64,000 nt of DNA from Gonapodya prolifera JEL478. Its lineage: Eukaryota > Monoblepharomycota > Monoblepharidomycetes > Monoblepharidales > Gonapodyaceae. Below the pieces are notes generated by a model, which worked only from the letters and a program-made list of their open reading frames with translations, made no database searches and was not told where the DNA came from. The translations under genes were made by a program, and so were the position numbers. The stretch covers positions 296,724 through 360,723 of the forward strand of contig KQ965749.1 in NCBI GenBank assembly GCA_001574975.1. The letters run 5' to 3'. Positions 8,194 through 54,297 of the stretch are shown piece after piece. How positions within the stretch are numbered: position 1 is the first letter of the stretch; every line of letters starts with the position of its first letter.

Positions 8194-9094
8194 ATGGACC
8201 CGGATCTCGCAGAACGACTAAAGCGGCTTCGTGGCGACCCAAAACCAAGCCCATCTCAGAGCGAGCTCTTCGCAAAGCTCAACGAACTTCGAGAGTCTTC
8301 AACCCCAAACTCACTTCAACCGTTTTGTTGTCCTATTCTGTCGGATGAATTGGGAACCAGCCATTTTACACACATCGGAGATGAGCTTCTGAAGAATGAA
8401 GTTGATATCTCTGTTCGTCGTCCGATCGCGTTTCGTTGATGTTCCGTAGCAAACATAGATCCTGAGAGGCGTTTTGACAGCGAATGGGAACAGAACGGGC
8501 AATACACTGAGCGCCCTTCCGTTTGCACACGCTCCATCAAGCTCAGTCGACCCTCTGGAATATGTAGGACTCAACATCAGCGACTCAGGAGTTGACGACC
8601 TTCTTTCTTCGGTAATGGATGAGGTAAATCCGGACTGTAGACACGCGTCTCAGGCAGCAATAGAGGAGAGGGATCTCATTCAATGGAAGAGCTTTGAAAG
8701 GAGCCTCTTACGTTCCAAACTCCCACTGATCCAAACACCAAACACCAGCACCAATTCTGCCAAAAGGGACTTGAAGCCCAATCTTGCAAACCTTCCACCG
8801 CCTCTCTCAATATCACTCAGTGACTTTTTTCCAAATCTTGGAACAGAAGAATCAAAAGACGTCAGGAATGATTTGGAACTATGGTGCCGTCAGTGCTAAG
8901 CTGCAATTCCAATGAACGAGCGCATTTAACGGAAATATTTCACCTCCCTAGGTAACTGCAATGAGGACGCTGCTATCCGATGTGTCAAGTGCAAGGACAA
9001 TCCTTTCTGCCAACGCTGCTTCAAAGAAACGCATTCAGATGACCTCGACTTTCAAAAGCATTGCGTTCGCTCCGTCAAAAGACTCAAACATTGA
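8194..9094 (+). CDS. ANCHR/ZFYVE19-like B-box zinc-finger protein
   Basis: The ATG at 8194 opens MDPDLAERLKRLRGDPKPS, a short helical motif like the MIM-type N-terminus of ANCHR proteins. A middle exon from about 8481 gives a disordered segment. After an intron (GTCAGT at about 8888 to CCCTAG at 8951) the last exon reads WCRNCNEDAAIRC, then VKCKDNPFCQRCFKETH, ending KHCVRSVKRLKH and TGA at 9092-9094. The Cys/His spacing is a B-box-type zinc finger, as in the C-terminus of ZFYVE19/ANCHR, an abscission (NoCut) checkpoint regulator that acts with Vps4/ESCRT-III. No FYVE domain is seen. The first intron's donor is not clear by eye; length would be near 230 residues. Confidence 0.65.
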
Positions 9095-9171
9095 GGTTGA
9101 ACAACAACACGCACGTCGTGACTGTGGAAGTCAGTCTGAGTCTCACAGACAACTTTATGTAAAGGGTGTCA

Positions 9172-12100
9172 TTCTTGAACATTCTGCATTGACGATGGAA
9201 TTGTCAGGGTGTTATATCATAGTAAATAGTTTGTCAATAGTATTGTATGTACAGCATTCATTGTACAATATGTCCATATTTTGCTTCCAAGCCAATTGGA
9301 AGGATGCCCACAACAGTGCATTTCAAATTTAATTCTCAATTTGTACTTGAATGACAACTTCTGGGGCAACATTTGCACTTTGAGTTCCCATAATTTGCAT
9401 GCTTTGATTGTACTTGACTGACAACTACAGGCCTTGACTTCCCAATGAGCTGTGAGCTGTACCCGCTTCCAGACCCAACTATCTTCACTTTCCAACTCAT
9501 CTCTCACCTTATTTGGCAGGCCCCTGCTGGTCCCCTTCCAAACAACCAGAATCCAAGAAGAAGAACTTTTTGAAATCCTCATAATGCAGGGATGGCCAAA
9601 CTAGTGATGTTCCAGACAGTCTTCAAAGTGATCTCTTTATTAGTGTCTTGGATAACCATTTCACAGCTGATACATTTTCATTGAACTGGTCAAGCGACAA
9701 TTGAAGATGTATAGAAACTCCACCTGGATCAGTAACCATACAAGGCGCATGTGCATATCATTGCATTTAATTGTTTCTGAGTTCTCTTGGGCTTGAATTG
9801 ACAAAACAGGTTAACCCTCCTCATTGGAAAGTGTTTAAGGACTCAAATTGCAGTGATTGCAGTCTCACCCCACAAATCATAAAGCCTGAATGGCATCGCA
9901 ACAGAAGAATGTATATGCATAAAGTTCTGCTGAAAAGTGAGCCTGGGGGGCAAGGCAATCACTATTCTTTAGCGAACGTCAAGTGGCCGCAATATTACCA
10001 AGTACAGTGAATCACCGAGCTTTTGTATAACAATTGAAAGTTGAACTCACCACAGAAGTGTCTCCAAGTCCTGTCCAGTGAATTGGAGGAGGGTGGATGA
10101 CAAACAACTGGGCACCAGCAAAGCACAGTCAGTTGTACATGAAAGCAGCAATGAAAGGAAGGAAGGAAGGAAAGATGCTTTGTTGATGTCCTTTGGTTGT
10201 GCACTGGCCAAGGTTGGAAGCCCAACTTTCTTGCCAAATCTTTATTTTCCCTGTCTTTAACCTCCCCTCCCCATCTGTTGGGAGGAGATTGCCAAGTATG
10301 GAGTTCTCATTATGTGACATTCAATCCTGGGTAGGTGGGGGGAGGGGGGGGGGGGGGGNGGGGGGGGCAAGGGGAAAGTGTTGTGTCATACAGATGATAG
10401 ATCATCTCATCAAACCAGGCCTGGGGAATTGGACTTTATAAACTGAGTAAGCATCAAATAAAATGTGCATGGTACATTTTGAAACATAATGAACCTCCAA
10501 TTGCCATTTGTCACCTCCATGTCATTAATACTGTCAAAGGTTTATAAAGAAGATCAGGGACATACAAACTTCACTTCAATGTTACATCCCATACTGTAAT
10601 GCATTCTTTGTATGTAAATAAGAGAAAAGAGAGGATTCTGGTCTCAAACTGCTCATGTGACAAAAGTGTGCAATAAAGACAGCAAAGAGCTGATCAAATG
10701 CCTTGTTGTAGTGGCTAACTCCAATGCAAGGCTGAGTTTGTGACTGTGCTAGCCAAAAAATTCCAAATCACCCGGTTTTCCTTTTGTGTCATCCAAAATT
10801 GACCTTTGATTTTCTTTGGACACACACACACAAGGTCTTGAAACCTGCTCATGGTTGTCTGCAGCATCTCTTTGGCAATGTACATGGTGTGTGAAGTCAT
10901 TTTTGTTGATGTCGCACTCATGTCATCACGTTTGCTGACTGCCATTGCTCTGATCCAACAGCTCCCCACAGTGCCCAACCAGTCTATTCATGCACAAAGG
11001 TCACATTTGCAGTGTTTCTATTGGTTTCACTACCTGGTGAGTGAGATGCCTTTGACTTTTGTTCTTTTCACCTCGAACTCAGTATCTTCCCTTTCACTTC
11101 CTTGTACACTCCACTCCACTCCACTCTACTACTTTCATCACTTGTGTTACCATACATCAACTTGCCATTCTGGTGCTTTCTCTGGTCCAGACTTCTTGCA
11201 TCCCTCCTCCATCAAGTGATGTGACCCTCCCCCTTTCTTGTCTGCCCCCTCAAAGTCCCAATACAACATTTACTGCCCCCCACTTCCTCCAGTTGCTCTG
11301 CTAAGACCCCTTGCCTTAAAAACTTGATGTGTTCTCCAGGTGACAACCCATGGCACTTGCTGGACCACAGCTACCATCTGTTTTGGTATGACTGATTGAC
11401 ACTATGTTGATTGGGTGGTTGTAGAACCAGATGTTGATTTGATATTTGCTGGTTCTCAGGCTCATCAGGGGTTACAATGTGGTCCAGAAAACTCTGTTGT
11501 GAGTCTTCTCCCATTTGTACTTCAAAGGTCTTCTTTTTTAATTTTCTTTTGTCTCCTTTTCTGCAGGGTCACTCTTCTCCTGTCTCTCTAGTCTCTCCTG
11601 TCCCTCCTGTGTTTCAAACTCTTTGCTCTACCATCAACAATGCTGTCCTCCCCCTTGTAGAACCTGTCCCTACTCCCATCCCCAAAGTCCCCACTCCCAT
11701 CCTCAAAGTCCCCACTTGCCTCTCTGCACAGGAGCATTGTGCTTGTGTGGGAGCTTTGAGAGCTCCAGGATATCTCCAAGATATGGCTCAAGCATTACTG
11801 GTATAAGCAGCAACAGGAGGGGTTGGATAACAAATTTGCTGTAATCTTCTGGAGCCACAAATGGCAGAAATGTCAAGCCAAAAATGTGAGAAATGGAGCA
11901 CAAATGACTTGCAATGTTTGGGATTATTTAGTGAGCTTGGGTCTTTGCATCCAGGCTTTGCCACTACTCAGAAGCAGCCACGCCCGCATAGACATGCATG
12001 CAGGTGTGTCCATGCTCATCCTGCCCTGCAGCCACTGGCCAAAGGGCAGCAATGTCACCCTTGACAACACAACATGCTTGGCATGTGGGAGGATGGGTGA

Positions 12101-14727
12101 CACCAATGGAGGTTCTCAAGATAGCCCATTATTGCAACAACAGCAGATGAGTAAGTAGTGGTTGCATTGTCAGTTTTTATGTAAGGGTATAACTTGACAA
12201 TTCTCCTGTCAGAACCGTACCTCTCTGAACTCATGAAGTGTGCATTTAGGGACATCACATCTGAAGACAGTTGGAGTGACACCTGTTCTGAGTGGTCAGC
12301 ACTAGATGTTGACAATCATGATGACAATTGCTAAGTTTGGCACTATTTACTCTCAGCTAAACTTTAATTTCAAAACCCTCCCAAAAAAATCTTCTGTGTG
12401 TTCAGCTACTCCACTCCTTTCACATGAGTTTGATCCTTGCAGCCATTGTGAGATTCTCATGCTTTCACTCCAATTATTCTTCATTGAACTTTTGATTACC
12501 ATCACATCCAGCAAACAACCTGGGTGTGTAACCAGTACCACCACACCAACTGGTGGCTCCAGGAGCAGCAAGTGAGTCACTTCTTACTTTTGATGGCAAA
12601 TACATTTCCTTGTGTGAATGCAACTTCTCCCTTCCCGGATGTCCCCAGGGTGAACCCACCACCTCCCATGCAGGGCCAAGCTGGGGCTGACCTGCCACAA
12701 TGTAATTTTTGGTTGTCTTGTTTCTTGTTCATCAACCACCTGACACTGATGCCATTAATGTTCCTTCAGGTCCTGCAGCAGGTCAAAACCCCAACTGCAG
12801 ATCGCAGAAGTACCTGTGTGCAAATATCAACTTTGGCAATGGCAATATCAGCCATCCCATGACCATCTCCACTGCACTTGTGTTGTTCCTTAACTGTGCA
12901 TACTGCTATATGGCCCAGGATACTGGTTACATCATCAATCAGGTACATTGTGTTTGTGATGTTTGTTTTCAGCAAAAGTTACAATTTGTATGCATATTCC
13001 ACAGATCACCCAACTAGTGTGTGAAACATTCTTACTCTCCAGCATGTACACTGCAGCCAAGCAGACCAAGACTGGAACAACAACTATGCAGCATGGTACC
13101 AACACTGCTACGCAGTGTCACAAATTCCTACTGTGCCTACTGTACATTGACAGCAAGCAACAACCACCTCCACCAGCACCCCTTCCTCCACCCCCCCTGC
13201 TGGTGCAAATCCTCTGTCATGATTAACTGCATACACACCTTGGATACAGAGCAAGCTTTGCAAGGGGAACAGGATGCTATTTCCTTACACCAAGTGAGAA
13301 CCTACAATAAATCCACTGTGCCAAGATGTGAGTATTTCTATTTTGCTTCTTTTGCTATATTCTGGATTGTTCCCTCTTAGAATCCAGCCAAGTGGTCTGT
13401 TGCACTACCTTGCTCACTCCACTAATACCGCTGCATATCCTGAACCCTCATTTGAGGGTGTTTGTTACAGGGATGTAGGGTGCAGAGTGAGTTGATTCCT
13501 CTGAATTGGGATGTTGAAGAGAAAATTAAGTGACATCTATGCATTCTCAGACATTCCCACAATGGTCAACAGGATGGTCAATCTGCTGGATGTCAACAAA
13601 CAGGACATGGTGACTACAAACCTGGAACAATGCATCAAGCAAGACTTGTGGCTAGAAGTCTGGAAGGTTCTATGTGCTCTCAACAGTGGGCATGGAGAAT
13701 AACAGCTGGCATTTTCATGGTCAATAGCAATTGGTCTGGCTGGCCATTTTGGCAGCTACTGTATAATTGTGGTGTTTATCTTCCACAAGTTTTCATTCCT
13801 TGCTTACTTTCACTTGCTTGTACTGTGTACCATTACACTTTCCTCATCTTCTTCAACACAGGAAAACCTTTTTTGCTGAGCACCACAGTCCTCAACTTAA
13901 TCAACAAATCAGCTCAAAGGCAAGCATGTGCAGCAACTATGTGGTGCTTGCAATCTGTGCCTGGCTAGCATTCAGATTCCATGGGCATCATGGTATTCCA
14001 TCCTTTACCACATCCAAGCAAAACTTAATTGAAATTGCAACATTACTAAGGTCTTCTGCCACTTGCCCATGCCCAGTCCCAGATGTTCCTCTTCCCAACA
14101 GACGGACTCCACAAATGCATCTGCATCTCCCAAACCCTCATCAACCATGGCAACAAGACGCCTGCAGAGCAACAGTGCATACCTTATTTCCCCCTTCCTC
14201 TAATAGCAGCACTGACCCCAGGTGGGTGTAGCCCTATGTCAACAAGTTGCCAGATTTGGTGACTTTGAGGCCAATACTGGGCACAAGTTTGCCATGAGGT
14301 GTGTCATTGAATCTTGTTAATGGCATGTGACATTACATCAACTGACAAGTGCTTTTTTTAGTGCTCTCACTGATGGCATAAACACCTGCCTCAACATGCA
14401 ATGCACCCAGTATCCTGCTTGACATGGACACATGGCTTCAGAGGCTGGCAGCTGCTTGCAATCTCCATGGGCAAGCTTGTTGGATCCAATGATCCCAGTT
14501 GACATCACACTGCTACTCATGCAGTTGTCAATGTACCTTGATGAGTCAATTGGCCACCTTGCCCCTTCCTGCACCTGAGCAACTTCAACAGATGGAGGAA
14601 TGACTGTATACAAGGCTCCACCCCCAAGCACTACCATTGCGCAAAGCATGATTCCGCACTGTGAGTGAATTGAAAAATGTTCAAGCATCAAACTTTATTT
14701 AATGTTCTTCCATCTTGTCCACAACAG
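9172..14727. other. Unassigned interior of the insertion
   Basis: Plus-strand segments that could be old exons include a Pro-rich stretch at about 11,600-11,750, a His/Cys-containing stretch at about 11,830-12,150, and a segment at about 14,222-14,300 reading VGVALCQQVARFGDFEANTG after a CCCAG acceptor. None was assigned to a family. A RuvC-I DPG-type motif expected upstream of the Fanzor 3' part was not found; LLDP near 14,480 is the nearest resemblance and is weak. G homopolymer at about 10,335-10,368. Confidence 0.3.
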
Positions 14728-15429
14728 AAACCCTTGCACAAAGCTGATGGAGCAGGACCCCAAGATCACATACATCAACAAGGCAATGCCAACTGGGAAG
14801 ACTGTGGACAAGCCTAAACTTGAAGAGCATGTGTTGTTTGTCCTCTGCTACCTCATGAAAATGCTTAAATTTCTAGAAGCAAAGACACTGGAAGTTGTGA
14901 GTCAAAATTGTCTTTATTGTTGTTTCTTAGCACCCCTAATCAAACAATGGTATTCTTTGCATTCTCCCATCCACCCAACACAGGCTTTGATTCTCTTCCA
15001 TGCAGGGCTGGCAGTGCTTACCACACTGGTGCAGAAGTTTTTTGGAAAGCACTGGCCATCTGAATGCATTGTTGCATGGGGATCAGCTGTCTTCAACCAG
15101 TTGAGTGGCAGACACCATATGAGCCCAAACCAGCTTATATGTAAGGCGTTTGTCAATGCTAGCATGACAGTCATTCTTGTTGACAAGTTCAGGATGAGCC
15201 GGATCTGTTCGCAATGTCATCACGCATTCACCAAGGAGAGTGGTACCAAGCAGAAGCTTTATAGCATTTGGTGAGTTCCCCTTTTTGTCTACGCAGTTTT
15301 CCACTCTGTCTCACTGCAGCTTCTTACCTTTAGATCTTGTGTGCCTGGAACAGGGATGTCAATGCGGCGCGGAACATCTTGTACCTGTTCTTCTACATGA
15401 ATGCCACCGACAGCATCATCCAACCCTGA
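14728..15429 (+). pseudogene. Fanzor (eukaryotic TnpB-like) nuclease, decayed C-terminal half
   Basis: Three plus-strand exons fit: 14728-14896, 14984-15270 and 15334-15429. They encode a helical segment (KLEEHVLFVLCYLMKMLKFL), then the RuvC-like block VAWGSAVFNQLSGRHHMSP, then VILVDKFRMSRICSQCH with the first zinc-ribbon pair. The last exon reads LCAWNRDVNAARNIL, the RuvC-III signature of TnpB/Fanzor proteins, and stops at 15427-15429. Damage: the donor at 15271 and acceptor at 15333 do not keep frame, the second CxxC is missing, and the usual D-E-F/Y-R-T-S is DKFRMS. The two changes need only CG to CA (GACGAG to GACAAG) and CG to TG (ACG to ATG). Fanzors are RNA-guided DNA nucleases carried by eukaryotic transposons; this copy is almost certainly inactive. 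Confidence 0.7.
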
Positions 15430-15573
15430 CCCTTCAAACGATTCAGTCACTAGTTTGTATGTTTCCGTGAGTCGAAATGATGTTTTTATTCCATGCAGTC
15501 AACCTAATCTTTGGTCTTGTGCAGCTTCTTCTTTCTTAAACACATACTCTTTGACACCCTTCGCTGAACCGGC

Positions 15574-15789
15574 CTAAAAATGGTGTACTGTGGCTCTCAT
15601 GCAAGTATTGACTCCTGGTTTCGTCTGGCGACCTCCTATCTTTTCATTGGCGACGAACGTGGTGTGGGAGCCGGAAGTTGGGATGGGACGTTTCCAGATG
15701 GGAGGATAAAAAGCGACCGCATTAAAATCAGCGATCGCATTAGTTCCGTATAGAGATGACGGCTTCGGTAGTACGCCAGGTTGTAACAT
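15574..15789 (-). CDS. Hypothetical 71-residue protein
   Basis: A single-exon minus-strand frame starting MLQPGVLPKPSSLYGTN and ending in HHF. It uses host-like, CpG-containing codons, unlike the adjacent insertion, whose right end lies 13 bp beyond its stop codon. No signal peptide, membrane segment or known motif was recognised. It may be a small conserved fungal protein, or part of a larger spliced gene. Confidence 0.4.
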   Translation of the reverse strand: MLQPGVLPKPSSLYGTNAIADFNAVAFYPPIWKRPIPTSGSHTTFVANEKIGGRQTKPGVNTCMRATVHHF

Positions 15790-16363
15790 GGTCCTCCTGT
15801 GCCCACCTAATTACTTGTCTCGCCTATTTGTACTTCACTAAAGTATTTCAATTTGCATTGGTACCTTGAATTATTGGTTTGTACAAACGTGCCAAACCAT
15901 CCCTTCGACACAATAATCACCATCTCGGTTCCTTTCCGAGAGAGATTCATATCTTCTCCTTCCAACCATCCTTATCGGAACTTTGTGTGTCACGGACGCC
16001 TTTCTGCCGAGGCGTTTCTTCTTCCTTGACTCCCTTGCCGCCAAATTCGGCACCTCTCGCTGCCGTGTCCTTCTACCGCTATCTGGAGCGACCAAAGAAC
16101 AGAACCAGTCTTTTGCCACGGGTGTAGAGTGGATTGCTTCGTGGATGAGGAGGAAAAAGTCTGCAGGTATGTTTCTCTGGTCGGCCCACTTCTGCGGAAA
16201 AGATCTGATGGGGAGAATCTCCTTCATATAGTTGCCTTTTAGCTACACTTCTTTCCAAAAAGTTCGTCAGCTCACTCTTCGGCGTGTGTTCTTGCAACGC
16301 GGGACGCAGTTTGGACTCACACTCCCGTTCCCAATACACCGCATTAAATCACGAAAAGGAAAG
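15790..16363. other. Intergenic, 5' region of the Hos4-like gene
   Basis: Contains the promoters of the 71-residue gene and of the Hos4-like gene. Several open frames on both strands look like by-chance reading; a 5' UTR intron (GTATGT at about 16167) is possible. No firm gene seen. Confidence 0.4.
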
Positions 16364-19300
16364 ATGAGCACCGTTTCCACAAAAGCCCCAGACTCTCTTA
16401 CCTTTCGGAATATGGATTCTCGGTCAATAACACCGAGTTCAAGCAAACAATCTTCTACAGCCCATCCTGCACATCAGCCTTCACCTGTAGGATCGCCAAG
16501 AGCATTCTCCTCAATCTCAGGCAACAAATCTAAGGGTTCTTCACTACCAAAACCGACTTCAGGCGTGAAAACATCGGAATCGAGAGGTTCCTCGTCGAAG
16601 AAGGCGAACGGAACCCGACCAAACGGGAAATCACAGTCTTCAAAACGCAAGGCTACTGGAAGTGAGATTACTCTGGTAAGATGATGATATTGTCCATGAG
16701 TCTTGGGAAGCAGCCGGTCCTCACATTATCCTCAATCATGGTTTGCCCAAAGAAACGAAAAGCAACGTCGGCCGATGACTCGGACAGCAGGGATAGCACA
16801 GCCAGTCGCAAGGATCGTTCCAAGAAGCTCAAAAAGGGATCTTCTTCCAAGAAACGACGACGTGACCGACGTGAATCCACACTGACGTCTGTCACAGATT
16901 CACTCTCTGATGGATCCAGCTCGGATCTTTCGGATTCATCAGTCACATCACTATCCTCCTCAGCACCGCGAACCGCTCTGAAAAGCGACACCAGCCAACG
17001 GAAGGGCCAAACCCCGACCAGAAGACCTACTGCTAGCATGACTCCACGTCCAGCTGCCATATCCGTACCACCCCCACGGACTGGGTATCTTTTCAAGGGC
17101 GATACCACTGTTGTTAACGGATATAAGCGGCGTCCTGTAAAGCTACAACTCATAAACAATCCGGATCGCAGCGGTCGAACACCCATGTTTCGCTACTCTG
17201 GAGTGGGCGACATACGAGCCGTGCAAGCACTCATTGATGCTGGAGCGCAGGTCGACCTTCATGACCACGCCGGTTGGACTCCCCTACACGAAGCGTGTCT
17301 TTCGGGCAGAACAGAAGTTGTGGAGCTTCTTCTTTCCCGAGGAGCAGATGTCACAGCCGCCGCCGTAGAGAGTGGCGACACCCCCCTCCACGACGCTGCA
17401 GAAAATGGCCACGTGGGGGCTGTCGAGGTGCTTCTTCGACATGGTGCGGACCCGCGCCAACCCAATCGGGAAGGACGAACCGCGTTTGACGCAGCCGAAG
17501 ACCAGGAGGATGTTTTGAAGGTTCTCCAAGCTTGGGAGGATCGGGCGCGAAATGCACATGGTCGGGACTCGTATGGTCAGACCGAACTGCATCGTGCAGC
17601 TGGACGCGGAGACTCGGTCGCGGTCGGACACCTGTTGCGACTTGGCGCCGACGCAGACGTGCGAGACAATGCAGGTTGGGCCCCGCTTCACGAAGCGTGT
17701 CTCGCAGGAAGAGGTGATGCGGTACGGATGCTACTCGAGCATGGCTGTGAGGTGAATCCAAGATCGTCAGACGGAGACACACCGCTCATGGACGCATGCG
17801 CGAACGGACACTCCTCTTGCGTGCGCGCTCTACTTGAGTATGGGGCGGACTCGTCGTTGAAGAACGAGCAAGGTCGCACAGCTCTCGATGAGTGCCTTTC
17901 GGCGGGGGCAAGGAGTGAAGAATGTCTGCGTCTATTGAAATTAGATCCCGCTCAATGGAAGCCCCCGAAGAAGCCGCGGTACGTGAAGATGAAGTTTCCC
18001 AAGCAGGAGGGCGCGTTGGTGGTACACGGTGTGGTTGCAAAGGAGGAGGCGGGTGTACATATTGCACTGGGAAGTTCGTTTGCGTCTGCGACTGGGGGGG
18101 GCAGACGTCTTGCTCGAAGACCTTCAGCAACCAACTCTGACTCGGGATCCCATCGCAGCGGATCGGAACGTGGAAAATCGGCGTTCGAAAAGGAGATCGA
18201 CCGCCTTGGAATTGGGTTCCATTGGTGGGACAAGTCGGTCACCGCGGCAGACATGAATGCTCAATTCTCAAGTCGGCGCGAAGAGAAGAAGTTTAAGGAT
18301 CTCATCAAGCGACTCGAGGCAGAGAACGCGAAGAACGCGCTTTCCAAGAAGAGTCCGACCGAGGTGGATGCCATTTCACCAACACAGAATCCCACAGAAA
18401 TCGTACAGGATATTCCGGAAGACGTTCCGGATCACGCACTTGGCTCAGCAAAGTCATTCGATCAACATTCTGAAACGCCAGAACCGGAGCCGGAGCCGGA
18501 GCAATCATTACGAACGGACAACCGACCCCCTTCACCACCCACGTCCCCAAGCTTTCCACCCGAGTTTGTCCCGGACCCCGAGTACGCCGATCTCGACGCG
18601 AAGCTGTGGCGGCAGGGAAAAAGGAGCAGGACTGCGTCAGAAATCGACGACGAGTATGATGAGATGCCGCCACCTAAGCGAAAAAGTGGAGAAAGGTCGC
18701 GGAGTGGTGGTGCAGCAGGGTCCGCGACGATGTCTGACGTTGACGGTGAAGAGCTGGGTCGACTAGCTCCGGCTCCTGCTCCTGCGGTCTCGGTTGGAGA
18801 TGGCCGCAGTGCGAATAAGGAAGCCAATCGAGAGAAGCGACGGAGAAAACTGCCGGAATATCGTGAGTGTTCCAAATTCCTCATTGAAGGGTTGCAGTTT
18901 GCATGAGCAAAAAAACGGAATGTGTGTCCCTTCGACAGAGCCAGAAGTGGACGCCCAACTCGCGGCGCTTTTCGGCGGTGAAGCCTCCGACGATAGTGAT
19001 GTCGACGACGGATCTGCTTCAAAGCCGGGGCACCGGGAGGCGCATCATGGCACACCGACCAAGAATGCGCCACCCAAACTTCGTCCAGTGCAGGCACAAT
19101 CAGGTACCGACGTCGGACCGTTGAAAGAGCGGTCACGCGAGACGTGGATGAACACAGTACTTGGGACGACGGGTCCTGACCCCCCGGAATGGGCTCACCA
19201 GTCGGGCAACGCCCCTCAACAACCCCGCACGTCCATCGGAAGCACCAAGTCAGATTACCGGGAAGATCAGCATCGATCGCTCCCTTCTACGGGACAAAAA

Positions 19301-47968: not shown

Positions 47969-50251
47969 TCATTCACCGCCAGCTGCCTCAGGTCCCATGG
48001 CAACGTCTCCCGTTGATTGACCCCTTCCATTGCGTGCCGCGCCGCGTCTCAACCCAGCAGAACCAACAGTCCCGCCAGCACCTTGCGACACACCACGTCC
48101 CCGTCCTCGACTCGCGACCGTGGTACCCAGTCCCTGTCCTGAACCAGCCGTTCTAGATGTTGTTGCGTCCCTTTGTGCTACTGCCCGTCTCTGACCCGTT
48201 TGTCGAGCAGCAGGTGCACCGCCAACACCTGGACCAGCTCGAACTCGAGTGATGATTGTCCCTCCTGTCGCGCCAACGCCTGCGCCCATTGTGATCTTTG
48301 TCCCTGCTGTCGCGCCAACGCCCACGCCCATTGTGATGTTGGCGCTTCCTGTAGTAGTGTTTGACGGGGTCAGTGGGAGATGTTCCTCTAGCTTCCTCTT
48401 CTTCCCTGTTCCAGGCTTCTTCTCCTTGGTAACCTTTCCAGTAGCGGTATGGAGGAGCCTGTCTGAGCTCACTATCGTGGCGATATGGTTCTGGATCCTT
48501 TCAGCGTCTGTTGGACTTGTTGTTTCCGTAACGCTGCCACCAAGTGTCAGAGTAAATAACATGCTAAAGAGTTGACAACTCACATAAAAGCCGATAGTTG
48601 CCGGTCAAGCTCGGACCAGTACTTTTCATTTGGAAGGTCGGCTGGAATTCTTGATGCGGAATACCTCTGAAGTGATCAAAACATGAAGTCCTGGTATCTG
48701 CAGCGTAGGATTTCCTGCAATGTTGGGGAGCTCACCAGTAGAACTGCTTTTGTGGCCATCGCATCTGTCACTTCGCCCAAAGAAACGCTCCAGATGCCTG
48801 AGGCCAAGTTCTTTGCGTCATGGTCCCAATAGCCCCGGATCTGTTGAGCAAAATTGGAAGCACAAAAGAAATTCGAAGTTCTCAAACAACTGTACCCACC
48901 TTGGCCTTGAGATAAGAGCGCTCATTGGAAATCTCAGTACTTATCCACGAGTTGATCCACTGTTGATATTTTGGAATGCCGTAAAGTTCCTTTGTAAAGA
49001 TACCATTGCTGATGGCCTTATGCTGATGGAAGGTTTGCATTTGCTGAGAAGCTGATTCCAAAGTAGCCAAAAGTAGAACATACCACAACGTCACCAACAG
49101 TGGCATATTCAGCAAAGCTCCATTGATCAAGGTCATACAGGCAAGGTTTGAATATTGCTCGAATAGATTTCTGTCAAATAAGACGTTTGTACTTGTCAGG
49201 AAGAAAGAGAAGCTAAGTGTGAAAGGTTGTGTGCCGACTTACCTTCTGGTTTATCGTCAGCTCAAACTTGTCAGATCCAGGTCTGGCAAACGTTTCCGTG
49301 AGGGGGGTAGCCGGAGTAGGTTCCGAGGGCGTTGTTGCTGCAGTTCCACCAACTGTGCCAGACTGCATCTGGTTCATCAGTACCTGTCGGACGATTTCCT
49401 CAACACGGTCAAGCCTCTCCTGTACATCCAAAGTGGGACCAAATAAGGGCATCTTGGAAAAACGTACGATAGATCAGCTCACCTCGGATGTACCCGTGTA
49501 CTTAAGCTTTGGAGGAAGGAGCACACCAGGACCTCCGGGCACGTCCAGGTTCCCAACTGGAGGGAAATTTTGACTTTCTTGAGGAGGAACTGTTGGGGAC
49601 ATCATTAGGGGAAACGCTGTCGGGATGGCACCAATTGAAGTTTGGCCGTACTGAAGCACATGAGGAATCAATTGTGAATTACAAACGGAAGCAGCACAAT
49701 GGTCAAGTCACTTACATGAAAAGGACTCCTGGTATTACCAACACTCGTGTCTCTGCTTATTCTGTTCGAGATACCATGCTTGTATCCGGTGATGGGCCTT
49801 CCAAGGGAGAGATCTGGGCTATAAGTTGTAGTCGCAAAAGGTTGGTGATTTGCTGGTTGTGGTGTGAGTGGGTTTCTTCCAGAGGTGTTGTTGTCTGGAG
49901 GAGATTGATAGTAAGGGTTGGTTGGCTGTCCAAAACCAGCGTCGCTTCTCTGATACGAGGTGTTCCAAGAACCATCAAGCACATTGCAAAGACGTGAAGT
50001 TCCGGTCTACATTAGCTGGATCAGGACCGAAAAACACCATCTCTTACCATAATATATGGTGTAGAAGTGGTTTTTGAGTTGGTCGTAAGTGATTTCTGAG
50101 GAAAAGAGGCGTGTGAGACTATGGGAGCATGGTACCGTGACGAGTCAAAGGTAGGCGTGAAGTCCCGATCAGGCTCGTTCTCGGCATCGTCCAAGCCGTA
50201 ATCATCGATTTCCAGCTCCAGAAAAGGCGATTTGGCCTCGTTCATGTCCAT
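47969..50251 (-). CDS. Accessory protein of the CACTA-like element
   Basis: A minus-strand gene of many small exons lies downstream of the transposase. A likely start is the ATG at 50,251 (MDMNEAKSPFLELEIDDYGL). Exon pieces include a Ser/Pro/Thr-rich region, DVQERLDRVEEIVRQVLMNQ (a short coiled coil, about 49,440), KYQQWINSWISTEIS (about 48,960), AKNLASGIWSVSLGEVTDAM (about 48,800), and a C-terminal Gly/Arg/Thr-rich tail after a KKRKLEE nuclear-localisation-type motif. In CACTA elements a second protein binds the subterminal repeats; this is the natural candidate. No DNA-binding domain was recognised, so the role is an inference from position. The tail contains an internal duplication (48,245-48,345). 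Confidence 0.4.
48245..48345. repeat. Short in-frame tandem duplication
   Basis: Two near-identical units within the accessory gene's C-terminal tail, reading on the minus strand as ITMGVGVGATAG and ITMGAGVGATGG. Confidence 0.6.
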
Positions 50252-50339
50252 TGGTGAACGAGGGAAAAGATTTGCCGGAAAAGTCACTGAAGGACCGGGC
50301 ACTCACTCATTCTCAAACCACAAACTGCCCAAATTTAAA

Positions 50340-53300
50340 AACATTCAGAAGGTAATAATTAGCTGCCGTATCGTGGACAAATTTGAGGCTGCCACTCCTC
50401 GAATTCCCAACAAACTGGCATGTCCCTAGTGAGATGGAACACATCAAAGGGAACTGCAGGGAAGAATTACATAATGGGTATTCCTCACCATTCCGAATGC
50501 AGTCGTGCTGAATTGACATGTGTTGAACGACCTCTGAAGCGTAGAGTAAATGAAGTTCGTGGGTTTGGAGGATAAGTCGCGGGTGCTCCCAGAAGACCTT
50601 GCCAACAAACGAATATGGATTCGCCAGGATTACGTTGAAAGAGCGCGATGCAAAAAATATCTGCGCAATTGACCCAACGCGGTAGAGTTTCTGGTCCAAA
50701 GAAAGTATAAGAGTTGGAAATTCAAAACTTCATTGATCACCTCAAAACTCACATTTGATTCGGTCACAAAGTTAGATCCGTTCTTCAGGATTGTCCCATC
50801 TGCTGCATACACTCCTGCATAGGTTGTGGCATCAGCTGAAAGGCGGACATAGTCAGCCAGAGACATTGAGGTTGCAACTTTGTGCAGCTGATCAGTGACT
50901 CCAAGACTCTGAGAAAGTGGATGGCAAAGAAGCTCTGCTAGCACAATCTGTGGGCTCTTGTTAATAGCTTGTAGATAAGAATCAAGTCGACCAATGGGGT
51001 TAAAGAGTTCCCCTGCAACAAAGAGTATCAATATTCAATACTCTTCAACAATCGCCTCAAGGGGAAGTAGAATGACCAGAACACACCGGCTTTACCACTA
51101 GAGGAGTAGTGGTTCTTGAGTTCTTCCATGTCAGCCAAACCAAACATTTGCGAAATGATTGGTTTCTTCCCCAGAGATTGCAAGTCAGGTGAGAGTGAGA
51201 TGCGGTCCCCATCAACATCCCAAGTTCCGCCATGAGTCATATAAACAAGTGGCGTGACTCGCTTGAAGCGAGTGATAACATCTCGTTCAGGTTGGAGATT
51301 GTTGGTCCGCTGGATGCATGCACGAAGCCGGCCGTGAAGTTGCTCGAGCTTCTCCGCTGACAAGTGGAGAAGTGGTCCAAAGATACGTACCCATTCCTCG
51401 ACATGTAGAGGTTGGTGCATCTTTACAAGTGCAAACCGTTTGGAGCAGTACCTGACAAGAGAAAGATTGGAGCTTTCGAGACAGAGTATGGGCTGAACTA
51501 AATAAACCCACCTCTTTACTGCCTCAATCCACCTGTCACGGGTCGATTTGAACTTTGCATAGTATGCGGCAACATTTCTGATGTCTGATTGATGCATCAG
51601 AACCATCATTGCAGATGTCAGCACCCAGACTTCAAGATATGTGACAGGGATCTTGAAGTCGCAAAGGGGACGTTGAGCAACTGTGGGAGCTTCTGTTGTT
51701 ACCGAGTCTTGTGAGCCAAGGCTTGATCCAGTGGAGAGAGCCCGTCCACGTGACCCAGCACCAGCGTCACGCTCCGCCTCAAGGTCATCCAAAGATCCCG
51801 GAATACTCCACACATTGTCGTCATCAACATCACCAAGGTGTGAGTCTTTTGATGTACCACTTGCTTTCGTGCGCTTTCCTCGAGTGAGCTTTGGTGCCGT
51901 TGTTGGAGTCTTTGTTGATCGACGGACATGGCGAATTCCATACACAAAGTGCATTAACGCGAAGAAGATTACCTGCAGACAAAGTAAATAAAGCCAACCT
52001 TTGACATGTCACCCCATCGCAGACAAGACACTCACCTGGCTCATCACTTTAAAATGACCAGCGTTCATTGAGCCAGTATACTTGCTAACCTGGATTCCAG
52101 TTAGCTTCAGCGGAAGCCCATCATGGTTGAGGGAGTCAACAATTGCTGCGAGTTCAGCAATTGAGCGGTCCCCACGGAGAAACCATTTCATGTCCTGCGC
52201 CAAATACTTTGGAACCCCTTCATCCCAATGCAAGAGGTCTCCAACGTTGCTTGTGTAAATGTCAAAGTTGGGGATGTGCAAGTAAGGATTGTTGGAGATA
52301 TAGCCATCCAGACCGACATCTTTGATGCCATACGAGAGGAGCAGCTCATCGGCCTTTGCAGGACCACCTACCTGAGCTGGCAGTAACAGTCTATCACTCT
52401 GTGCACGAGGTGGTGGGGGACGAGCTCGTACGATACGGGACTAGTGGTGCAAAGAGATTCTTGCTAACTTGATCCCCGCAATCGCAGGCCGCAATTGTTG
52501 GAAACTTACCTCGAAAATAACTTTCCTAGCCTCTTCAGCAGTTCGGAGCAACCCGAGCTGAAACCCCAAAGGTGCCAAAATATGGCAGTGGTGGCATGAC
52601 TGCTTCACAACAGTCTTGTAAGTCGAAACAAACTCTTTGATCCGCGGGTTATCACCCTTCACGCCACAGAGGTTCCCAGTAACAAAAACTTCCTCCTTGA
52701 AGGCGCTGTGATAAGCGCAGAACCCTTGACGCAGTTGCTTTGCACCAGTCTCCAACACAACCTTCGCCATTTGGAGAACCTTAATTGGAGGACGTGTAAC
52801 CGAAATGAGGAACTGGTGGCCTAGGTGATTGTTGATGTGGAAGGGGATTCCAGCTAGATTTGCGGCAAAATTCTCCCAGGGGTCGTATTTCGTGCCGCTT
52901 ACACCCGAAAAGCCATCGCTGCAAGCACGAAGCCTGGTGATGAACAATCAACGCAAAAGCCAAAAACATTCAACTCACGAATAATTCCACCATGGCAGAT
53001 TCACGTGCCGTCTCTCACCAATCCTTGCCGACAGCGGATGTGGTTCAATAAACCATTCGGTGAGGAGTGGTCCCGATAGTGGCAGGGCTTTTGGCTCCGA
53101 GAGCGCACACATGCGATCCCACACACCAGCCAAAAAGAATGTTCCACCCATTTCCAAAGACCGAGTGTCAACCACTCCATAGCACCGCGGTCCTAACTGT
53201 TCCACCAGCAAATAATGTTCTGTGGTCATGTCCACAAACCAACTCGCCCCTGCATCAAATGTTCGCAATGACCTGACTCTCGCTAGCATGCCTCCAATAT

Positions 53301-54297
53301 CCCTTTCCAGGAATTGTCGCGTCCAGACGATTCCATTCTCCAAGCGGTAAAAGGATCGCTGCCATACGAGCTTGCCATCGTCTGACCGTCGGATATTTGC
53401 GACCTGAAAAGCAGGATCTGTATGCCAGCGATCCGCCTCACAAATATTGGAGAGGCCTCCTTGCGTATTCAGTTGCGGAAGGAACCCAATGTGCGGTGCG
53501 AGCTCAGGATCCCCAAGTGCCAGTTGTGCAGTGGAAGCCAGACTGATGGAATGCATGGTTTTGGGCCCTTTCTCTGTCTCGATGGAAGTTGCAAATGTTT
53601 CCATGCTGATCCCTGCAGGGATTTTTTGATCTATCCGGTTCCATAGCTCATCCATGGAAGAAATGATATCTTGCGGGTGAGTTTGGCCGTAGCAAACTAG
53701 GAAAAGGACAAACTCAAAAAGGCTGCGTGAAGGAGGATCACAAGTTGAAGTTCGAAAGAGGGTGAGGAGGAAGTCAAGGCCGGATTTGAATGGGGTCCGT
53801 GGATCTTTTGCAGCTCCACTTCGGTGATGATTCAGTCCACCAGGTCCCTTGTGAAATGTCCCTTCATTAGCATCAGGAGGCTCATCTGGTACGAATGGTT
53901 CCGGTGAAGGCTCGACACTTTGTGTAATCGGCCTGGGTGAAGGAGGATGGGGACAAGGGGAAAACTCTCGCTTGAAGGGATGGGGATGTTGCTGCATGTC
54001 AACATCCTGGCGCAACGTCTGAAATTCCTCTGCGGGCTCTATTTCCTCGTCTTCTGATGGCGAGGAAGATTCAAAATCGGTGGGGCCCCGTTTGGGATGG
54101 ATGTCATCCACCATCTCGACATCGTCCTCCCTTACTTCACGATTCGGTCCATCAGCCCGTCCTTTAGCCCCAAGTGAGAGTTGATGTCGATTCGAAAACC
54201 AATGTCTCCGCTTAGCACTGGGGGTGATTCGAGTGAGAGGTGCCCCACAATCAGCGCACCGGTACCCGTTGCCTTCATGGAGCAAATTCACGTCCAT
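50340..54297 (-). CDS. CACTA/Plavaka-like transposase
   Basis: Start ATG at 54,297. The N-terminus has a Cys-rich motif (YRCADCGAPLTRI) and a long acidic, Pro-rich region. After an intron at about 52,945-52,980 the next exon reads CSDGFSGVSGTKYDPWENFA and GIPFHINNHLGHQFLIS, then CGVKGDNPRIKEF and SCHHCHI. The D-x-SG...KY-x-x-x-EN and GDNPR...CHHC patterns resemble the large fungal transposase group related to Plavaka/Tnp2 (CACTA/EnSpm). Further exons include HIPNFDIYTSNVGDLLHWDE, VWVLTSAMMVLMHQ, HVEEWVRIFGPLLHLSAEKL, and C-terminal segments down to about 50,340. At least five introns are needed. No stop codon breaks the recognisable exons, so it may be functional. The three catalytic carboxylates were not assigned. 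Confidence 0.55.

Follow-up and report, generated by a model that had tools for sequence, protein, structure and literature searches.

The window, a 64,000-nucleotide stretch of the genome of the chytrid fungus Gonapodya prolifera JEL478 (G000:C19:296724-360723), very probably contains at 12.7-15.45 kb the remains of a Fanzor1-type gene with many exons, a dead copy borne on a dispersed mobile element of this organism. Judged from its sequence, the copy is a Fanzor1 by descent and not a working Fanzor. Defining Fanzor motifs were taken from the available portions of PMC3627910, PMC10711439 and PMC10432273; three of the defining Fanzor1 features are lost in the window copy because it has decayed, and its membership is therefore by descent only. 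The locus is a well-documented but ordinary pseudogene of a known family, ordinary because an intact relative and other broken copies are found in the same genome, and it is novel only in details.

The gene, its parts and the element are listed in Table 1. The extent was obtained with a profile comprising M427DRAFT_133504 and two relatives from Gonapodya sp. JEL0774, with which every frame of the window was scanned. Colinear matches were identified on the plus strand from 12.8 to 15.1 kb, the best scoring 33 bits. The N-terminal block (12796-12951) is followed in order by 13553-13696 (21 bits), 13925-14026 (18 bits), 14056-14223 (32 bits) and 14735-15106 (31 bits), with weaker matches between them. 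Nothing off this line scored above 5.2 bits, and the highest score among 60 dinucleotide shuffles of 12001-16000 was 5.0 bits. This colinearity makes the dead gene about four times longer than the interval given by the original prediction, 14,728 to 15,429: the gene placed there is real, but its remnant starts near 12.7-12.8 kb and 14,728 is the start of an exon.

Table 1. Features of the dead gene and of the element that carries it (window coordinates).
Feature	Position	Strand	Remarks
Dispersed element holding the dead gene	10713..15840	+	Right end sharp at 15840
Decayed Fanzor1-type gene	12733..15453	+	Colinear with M427DRAFT_133504 (P0006) residues 15 to 841
N-terminal block	12796..12951	+	Profile positions 54-105, 26 bits
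Middle blocks	13517..14401	+	P0006 residues 287-560, several frames
RuvC-I exon	14362..14660	+	GKLVGSNDPS; exon limits by eye
Exon ending ...KTLEV	14728..14896	+	Limits by eye
Intron	14897..14983	+	Stays open by chance
Exon with AWGSAVF, RuvC-II Glu position and first CxxC	14984..15270	+	
GT-AG intron, 63 nt	15271..15333	+	Same place in intact relative
Last exon	15334..15429	+	RuvC-III WNRD; early stop
Conserved right end, candidate omegaRNA scaffold remnant	15741..15840	+	

The exons 14728-14896, 14984-15270 and the one from 15334 were delimited from splice signals by eye and then checked. In the intact relative, with its 13 exons, the final four take the place of the three originally predicted, whose coordinates were too short. 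A 190-codon open frame (14702-15274) is misleading here because the intron at 14897-14983 is read through. Frame decay inside 15,271-15,333, where the frame had been described as lost (15,270 to 15,334), was rejected, this stretch being the second intron of Table 1.

The three motif blocks that had been named are real in the sequence and lie where they had been placed: WNRDVNAARNIL is encoded from 15346, ICSQCH is at 15203-15220, and VAWGSAVF...GRHHMSP lies upstream of the latter in the same exon. The RuvC-I Asp is kept within GSNDPS (codon 14491-14493) and is followed by a stop at 14500-14502 and then by further stops, and the remnant of the EYYH motif reads KHYH near 14626. At RuvC-II the pattern ExxxxxxC would place a Glu seven residues ahead of the first zinc Cys, and the window has Lys (codon 15185-15187). 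This residue is not private to the window, since Lys was identified in 5 of the 12 copies (the window, L042, L044, L046 and L047), Glu being found in the other seven (L043, L045, L057, L058, L059, L060 and L061).

The first CxxC was identified at 15206-15217. The second is missing, as had been noticed before, because a 13-bp deletion directly after 15338 took it out; the deletion is seen against every one of the six aligned paralogues that cover the site, and the window therefore has no C4 zinc finger with two Cys pairs. The second-pair site reads SCxHC in five of these paralogues (L042, L043, L045, L046 and L047) and SCMHR in L044. Two residues before the zinc finger [TS][TS] is absent, the window reading MSRIC and P0006 TSRVC. 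The RuvC-III RD, expected 5-50 residues past the zinc finger, was found as WNRD at 15346-15357 (Asp codon 15355-15357), in a different frame from the first CxxC owing to the same deletion. Joining of the exons across 15271-15333 creates a stop codon over the splice junction, and the frame ends early at 15427-15429, versus 15451-15453 in the paralogues.

That this is a dead Fanzor copy, as originally proposed, is borne out by the stops, the 13-bp deletion, the Lys at the catalytic Glu position and a match above cut-off to PF07282, the TnpB/Fanzor zinc-ribbon family. The read-through C-terminal block scores 33.5 bits with this profile (cut-off 26.3, E 4.7e-8), and the runner-up is an unrelated zinc finger with 15.0 bits, under its own cut-off. 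The 190-aa frame alone gave no match in Pfam, NCBIfam or PDB, the last exon alone stayed under the cut-offs in family searches, and the window copy is absent from the 20 matches listed in the genome-wide PF07282 search. A short motif and such weak single-exon scores could also come from a chance zinc-ribbon-like stretch or from an unrelated zinc protein, but the PF07282 match of the read-through block and a long colinear match far above the shuffles leave this explanation a practically negligible chance.

Profile A1 was built from Fanzor-type proteins without an IS607 link (six rows, one protein being present twice). Scanned against 23 loci and every frame of the window, it matched the window at 15334-15426 with E 8e-5. 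It also matched the last exons of the window's paralogues, and it reached no further stretch in all window frames at E <=10. Few relatives came from the protein searches (4, 4 and 3 proteins), and none of 29 pattern matches in viral contigs was confirmed as a relative. No PDB chain was matched at E 0.001 in sequence and profile searches, the best by profile being LaTranC (E 0.36). AlphaFold2 modelled L050 and P0006 poorly (pLDDT 34 and 48, respectively), and the models therefore lend no fold support. A limited literature search found no paper pairing Fanzor with Gonapodya; absence of the family from print is not claimed.

A live relative had been thought possible elsewhere in the genome, and a live-looking one was identified: M427DRAFT_133504, annotated as hypothetical protein / Cas12f1-like TNB domain. 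It is encoded on the minus strand of L061 (C17) by 13 exons with 12 introns of 68-97 nt, and the gene model yields its 845-aa protein letter for letter. The protein matches PF07282 with 45.5 bits (E 8.2e-12). SCDPN and WDRD are both retained in it, as is the Glu located seven residues ahead of the first zinc Cys. The genome thus still has at least one relative whose gene is unbroken and whose three catalytic positions are all in place, and it is a concrete candidate for activity testing. It belongs to the same gene lineage as the window copy, with colinear blocks and three of its last four introns placed identically, whereas it differs in its uninterrupted frame, its kept catalytic positions, its normal CpG content (o/e 1.01) and an extra intron between AWG and the zinc ribbon.

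Two details of M427DRAFT_133504 count against a Fanzor reading: a second zinc pair of the form C-x6-C, not CxxC, and DPN, not the DPG that is nearly always present in Fanzors according to the accessible part of PMC10711439. The two Gonapodya sp. JEL0774 relatives (P0007 and P0008; 41-42% identical in alignment A2) show CDPG, which counts in favour of a Fanzor reading. As annotated these two proteins end before the zinc ribbon, possibly through annotation or contig-end effects. No near-identical DNA copy of M427DRAFT_133504 was identified in the genome, the next matches being 72-82% over 61-185 bases, and no inverted-repeat pair flanks it within L061:2000-8001; it could be either an established host gene or a mobile copy standing alone. 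Further relatives of this gene were observed at G000:C11:615921-616295 and C50:257004-257640, and two C11 pieces without stops may be part of a second intact gene.

The genome search covered 47.6 Mb in 207 contigs. The 190-aa frame matched 22 stretches including the window (best other E 1.1e-64), and the DNA of 13200-15760 matched 13. Paralogues sharing the RuvC-III end were found together with the intact gene of the same lineage, the last-exon peptide matching 16 of 21 loci at E <=0.01; these loci had been picked from earlier matches and are therefore not an independent sample. One right end is common to eight dispersed copies, the window copy and seven others, which marks the gene as carried by a mobile element. 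Window DNA is shared up to 15837-15842, and beyond 15840 the copies look unrelated by eye. By DNA the seven paralogues have their left limits at 14367, 14642, 14740, 14932, 14957, 14976 and 15400. In one of them, L046, protein similarity extends as far as residue 93 of P0006, so some of this 5' truncation only reflects the limit of DNA comparison. In a second subfamily (query L060, 20 stretches) 11 of the 19 non-query stretches end at query 2535-2544, within 10 bases, with varied left limits.

The left limit of the element in the window, about 10,713, is the start of homology to seven loci. It is probably a truncation or rearrangement and not the true terminus, because five of the seven share more sequence to the left of it. 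No inverted repeats were identified at the ends of the element, and no target duplications were noticed by eye. Of the 14 frames of >=85 aa overlapping 9.2-13.5 kb, 10 were scanned against Pfam; none scored above the cut-off of any family, and no transposase was seen. A 240-bp dispersed repeat with fixed ends (at least 44 stretches, including L045:3348-3586, with 40 of 400 candidates scored) often lies at or within about 10 bases of the left edges of Fanzor remnants (L042, L045, L047 and L060), in either orientation. It was rejected as the left end of the element, its orientation being variable and the C4 and C60 copies continuing upstream without it. Directly to the right of the element lies an ankyrin-repeat ORF (741 aa, window 16681-18906), the nearest host gene candidate.

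The body of the element is nearly devoid of CpG. Its o/e is 0.04-0.08 in 1-kb bins at 10-15 kb and about 1 in most of the window; it is mostly <0.3 over 9121-15150, with a TpG/CpA excess of 1.5-1.7, as would be expected from cytosine methylation and deamination. The left edge of the CpG-poor block is near 9121. Close to it ends a stretch (window 8801-9242) that is 84% identical to C87:178742-179183 and is possibly the edge of an inserted block. A milder second dip (0.56-0.76) was observed at window 49000-54000, perhaps another old insertion. The near-total CpG loss also bears on whether the locus could be an expressed fragment of a Fanzor gene, re-purposed for a new role. One 190-codon frame is open and GT-AG signals are kept in the last introns, but the open frame crosses an intron by chance, and the stops in the RuvC-I exon, the stop at the last junction, the deletion and the Lys at the Glu position all speak, with the CpG loss, against a role that is in any case very improbable.

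A dead copy of a once mobile gene is thus the preferred reading, and the following course is proposed for it. The live gene would have encoded a TnpB-like protein of about 850 residues that combined a split RuvC nuclease with a zinc ribbon. By analogy with studied Fanzors, the protein would associate with an RNA transcribed from the right end of the element; this RNA would read through into the flanking DNA, the flank acting as guide, and nuclease and guide together would cut matching DNA. In its present state the body has almost no CpG left, and it shows stops, the 13-bp deletion and a Lys in place of the catalytic Glu.

CpG loss does not extend to the final few hundred bases of the element, either in the window or in the 11 other copies examined (8 copies of subfamily 1 and 4 of subfamily 2 in total). 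In 12 of 12 copies the CpG o/e of the last 200 bp (0.53-1.18) is above that of the bin -900 to -700 (0-0.61), and in nine of them the best change point lies over 200 bp within the element. The exceptions are L047 (at -5), L042 (at +150) and L034 (just left of its 441-bp remnant). The pattern is a hint, drawn from base composition only, of which part of the element stays open. Shared euchromatin is the simpler cause of the spared right end, because the downstream host DNA is also CpG-normal.

The right end is also conserved and may form a structured RNA. Its last 70 bp are 79-83% identical to the distant copies L046 and L047, versus about 65% in the adjoining non-coding sequence and 70-72% in exons. 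A predicted stem is closed at or near the 3' terminus of the element in both subfamilies. In alignment A4 (eight right ends) 92.9% of cells pair in the predicted stem and three pairs have two-sided changes (145 of 500 shuffles as high; 10 of 500 for the covariation score), and in A5 (subfamily 2, six sequences) there are four such pairs (0 of 500; 5 of 500 for the covariation score). The fold z of single sequences is +0.9 in the window copy and ranges from -0.4 to -2.6 in five other copies, the window right end folding no better than shuffles (164 of 200 as good). Against Rfam, window 9000-17000 gave a single match, to MIR815, which scored below threshold and lay elsewhere. The fold evidence is suggestive only.

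These features are consistent with an alternative in which the body is dead and the right end, unmethylated and transcribed as a guide RNA, would still serve an intact Fanzor in trans. The spared CpG in 12 of 12 copies, the conservation of the last 70 bp and the terminal stem with two-sided changes in both subfamilies would fit it, as would L034, in which DNA comparison finds nothing but the right end and the window's peptides find no match, and the likeness to gene-less ghost elements reported for Spizellomyces in the available text of PMC10432273. We consider it unlikely. The right end may just share the euchromatin of the CpG-normal host DNA; L047 has an upstream bin (-1100 to -900, 0.74) that exceeds its last 200 bp (0.53); the L034 remnant is so short that the upstream CpG bins fall outside it; most shuffles fold better than the window copy does; and the nearest intact protein is diverged, with no right end identified for it. 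An extension of this alternative, in which the spared ends would reflect lasting transcription and the dead copies would be a standing guide-RNA library for an intact Fanzor such as M427DRAFT_133504, appears quite unlikely; if true, dead copies would supply guide RNAs used in trans.

Within the dead-gene reading, sequence comparisons support Fanzor1 rather than Fanzor2. The last-exon peptide matches recombinase-unlinked frames (L048:2401-2460, L051, L052, L053 and L056) and none of the IS607-type Fanzor2 frames of L048, L049, L054 and L055. The L048 Fanzor2 ORF has no match in the compared window region, and no recombinase that would indicate Fanzor2/IS607 membership was found among the 10 of 14 frames scanned at 9.2-13.5 kb. 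Full Fanzor1-type ORFs do not reach the window itself at E 0.01, though they reach its paralogues. The IS607-type Fanzor2 elements (L048 and L049) resemble the window gene in their TnpB-like zinc ribbon and RuvC and differ from it in a serine recombinase partner (L048, the only recombinase ORF checked in Pfam). The two pairs are 73% alike over 386 columns. In both (L048:3289-5512 and L049:3492-5433) the recombinase and Fanzor2 ORFs are open and share about 0.7 kb in different frames, and a divergent Fanzor1-like frame of 280 aa (L048:2329-3171) adjoins the L048 pair.

A further locus, L050:3271-6924, comprises an uninterrupted Fanzor1-type ORF (468 aa), which contains all 449 residues of M427DRAFT_48926, and a DDE_3 transposase ORF. 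Both sit between 28-nt inverted repeats that are 86% complementary, and the element looks like a mariner type. Several Fanzor lineages thus coexist in Gonapodya: multi-copy families in decay, an intact Fanzor1-type gene of 13 exons, a Fanzor1-type ORF with a DDE transposase ORF within inverted repeats, and IS607-type Fanzor2.

Among known systems, the Fanzor1 family (SpuFz1 and relatives), as described in the portions available of PMC3627910, PMC10432273 and PMC10711439, is like the window gene in its split RuvC, its Glu position just before the zinc ribbon with RD after it, and its occurrence on mobile DNA with broken copies dispersed. The window copy is unlike it in being inactive and in lying on an element with no detected end inverted repeats or transposase. 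The Chlamydomonas families CRe-1, 2 and 3 are Helitron2-like in the accessible text of PMC3627910, whereas the Gonapodya element has no demonstrated Helitron replicase, terminal hairpin or target duplication, and the right ends of its two subfamilies differ in sequence. With these families it shares a multi-exon Fanzor1 gene and the pattern described there for Chlamydomonas Fanzor1 copies, in which the 3' end is intact and the 5' end is often truncated.
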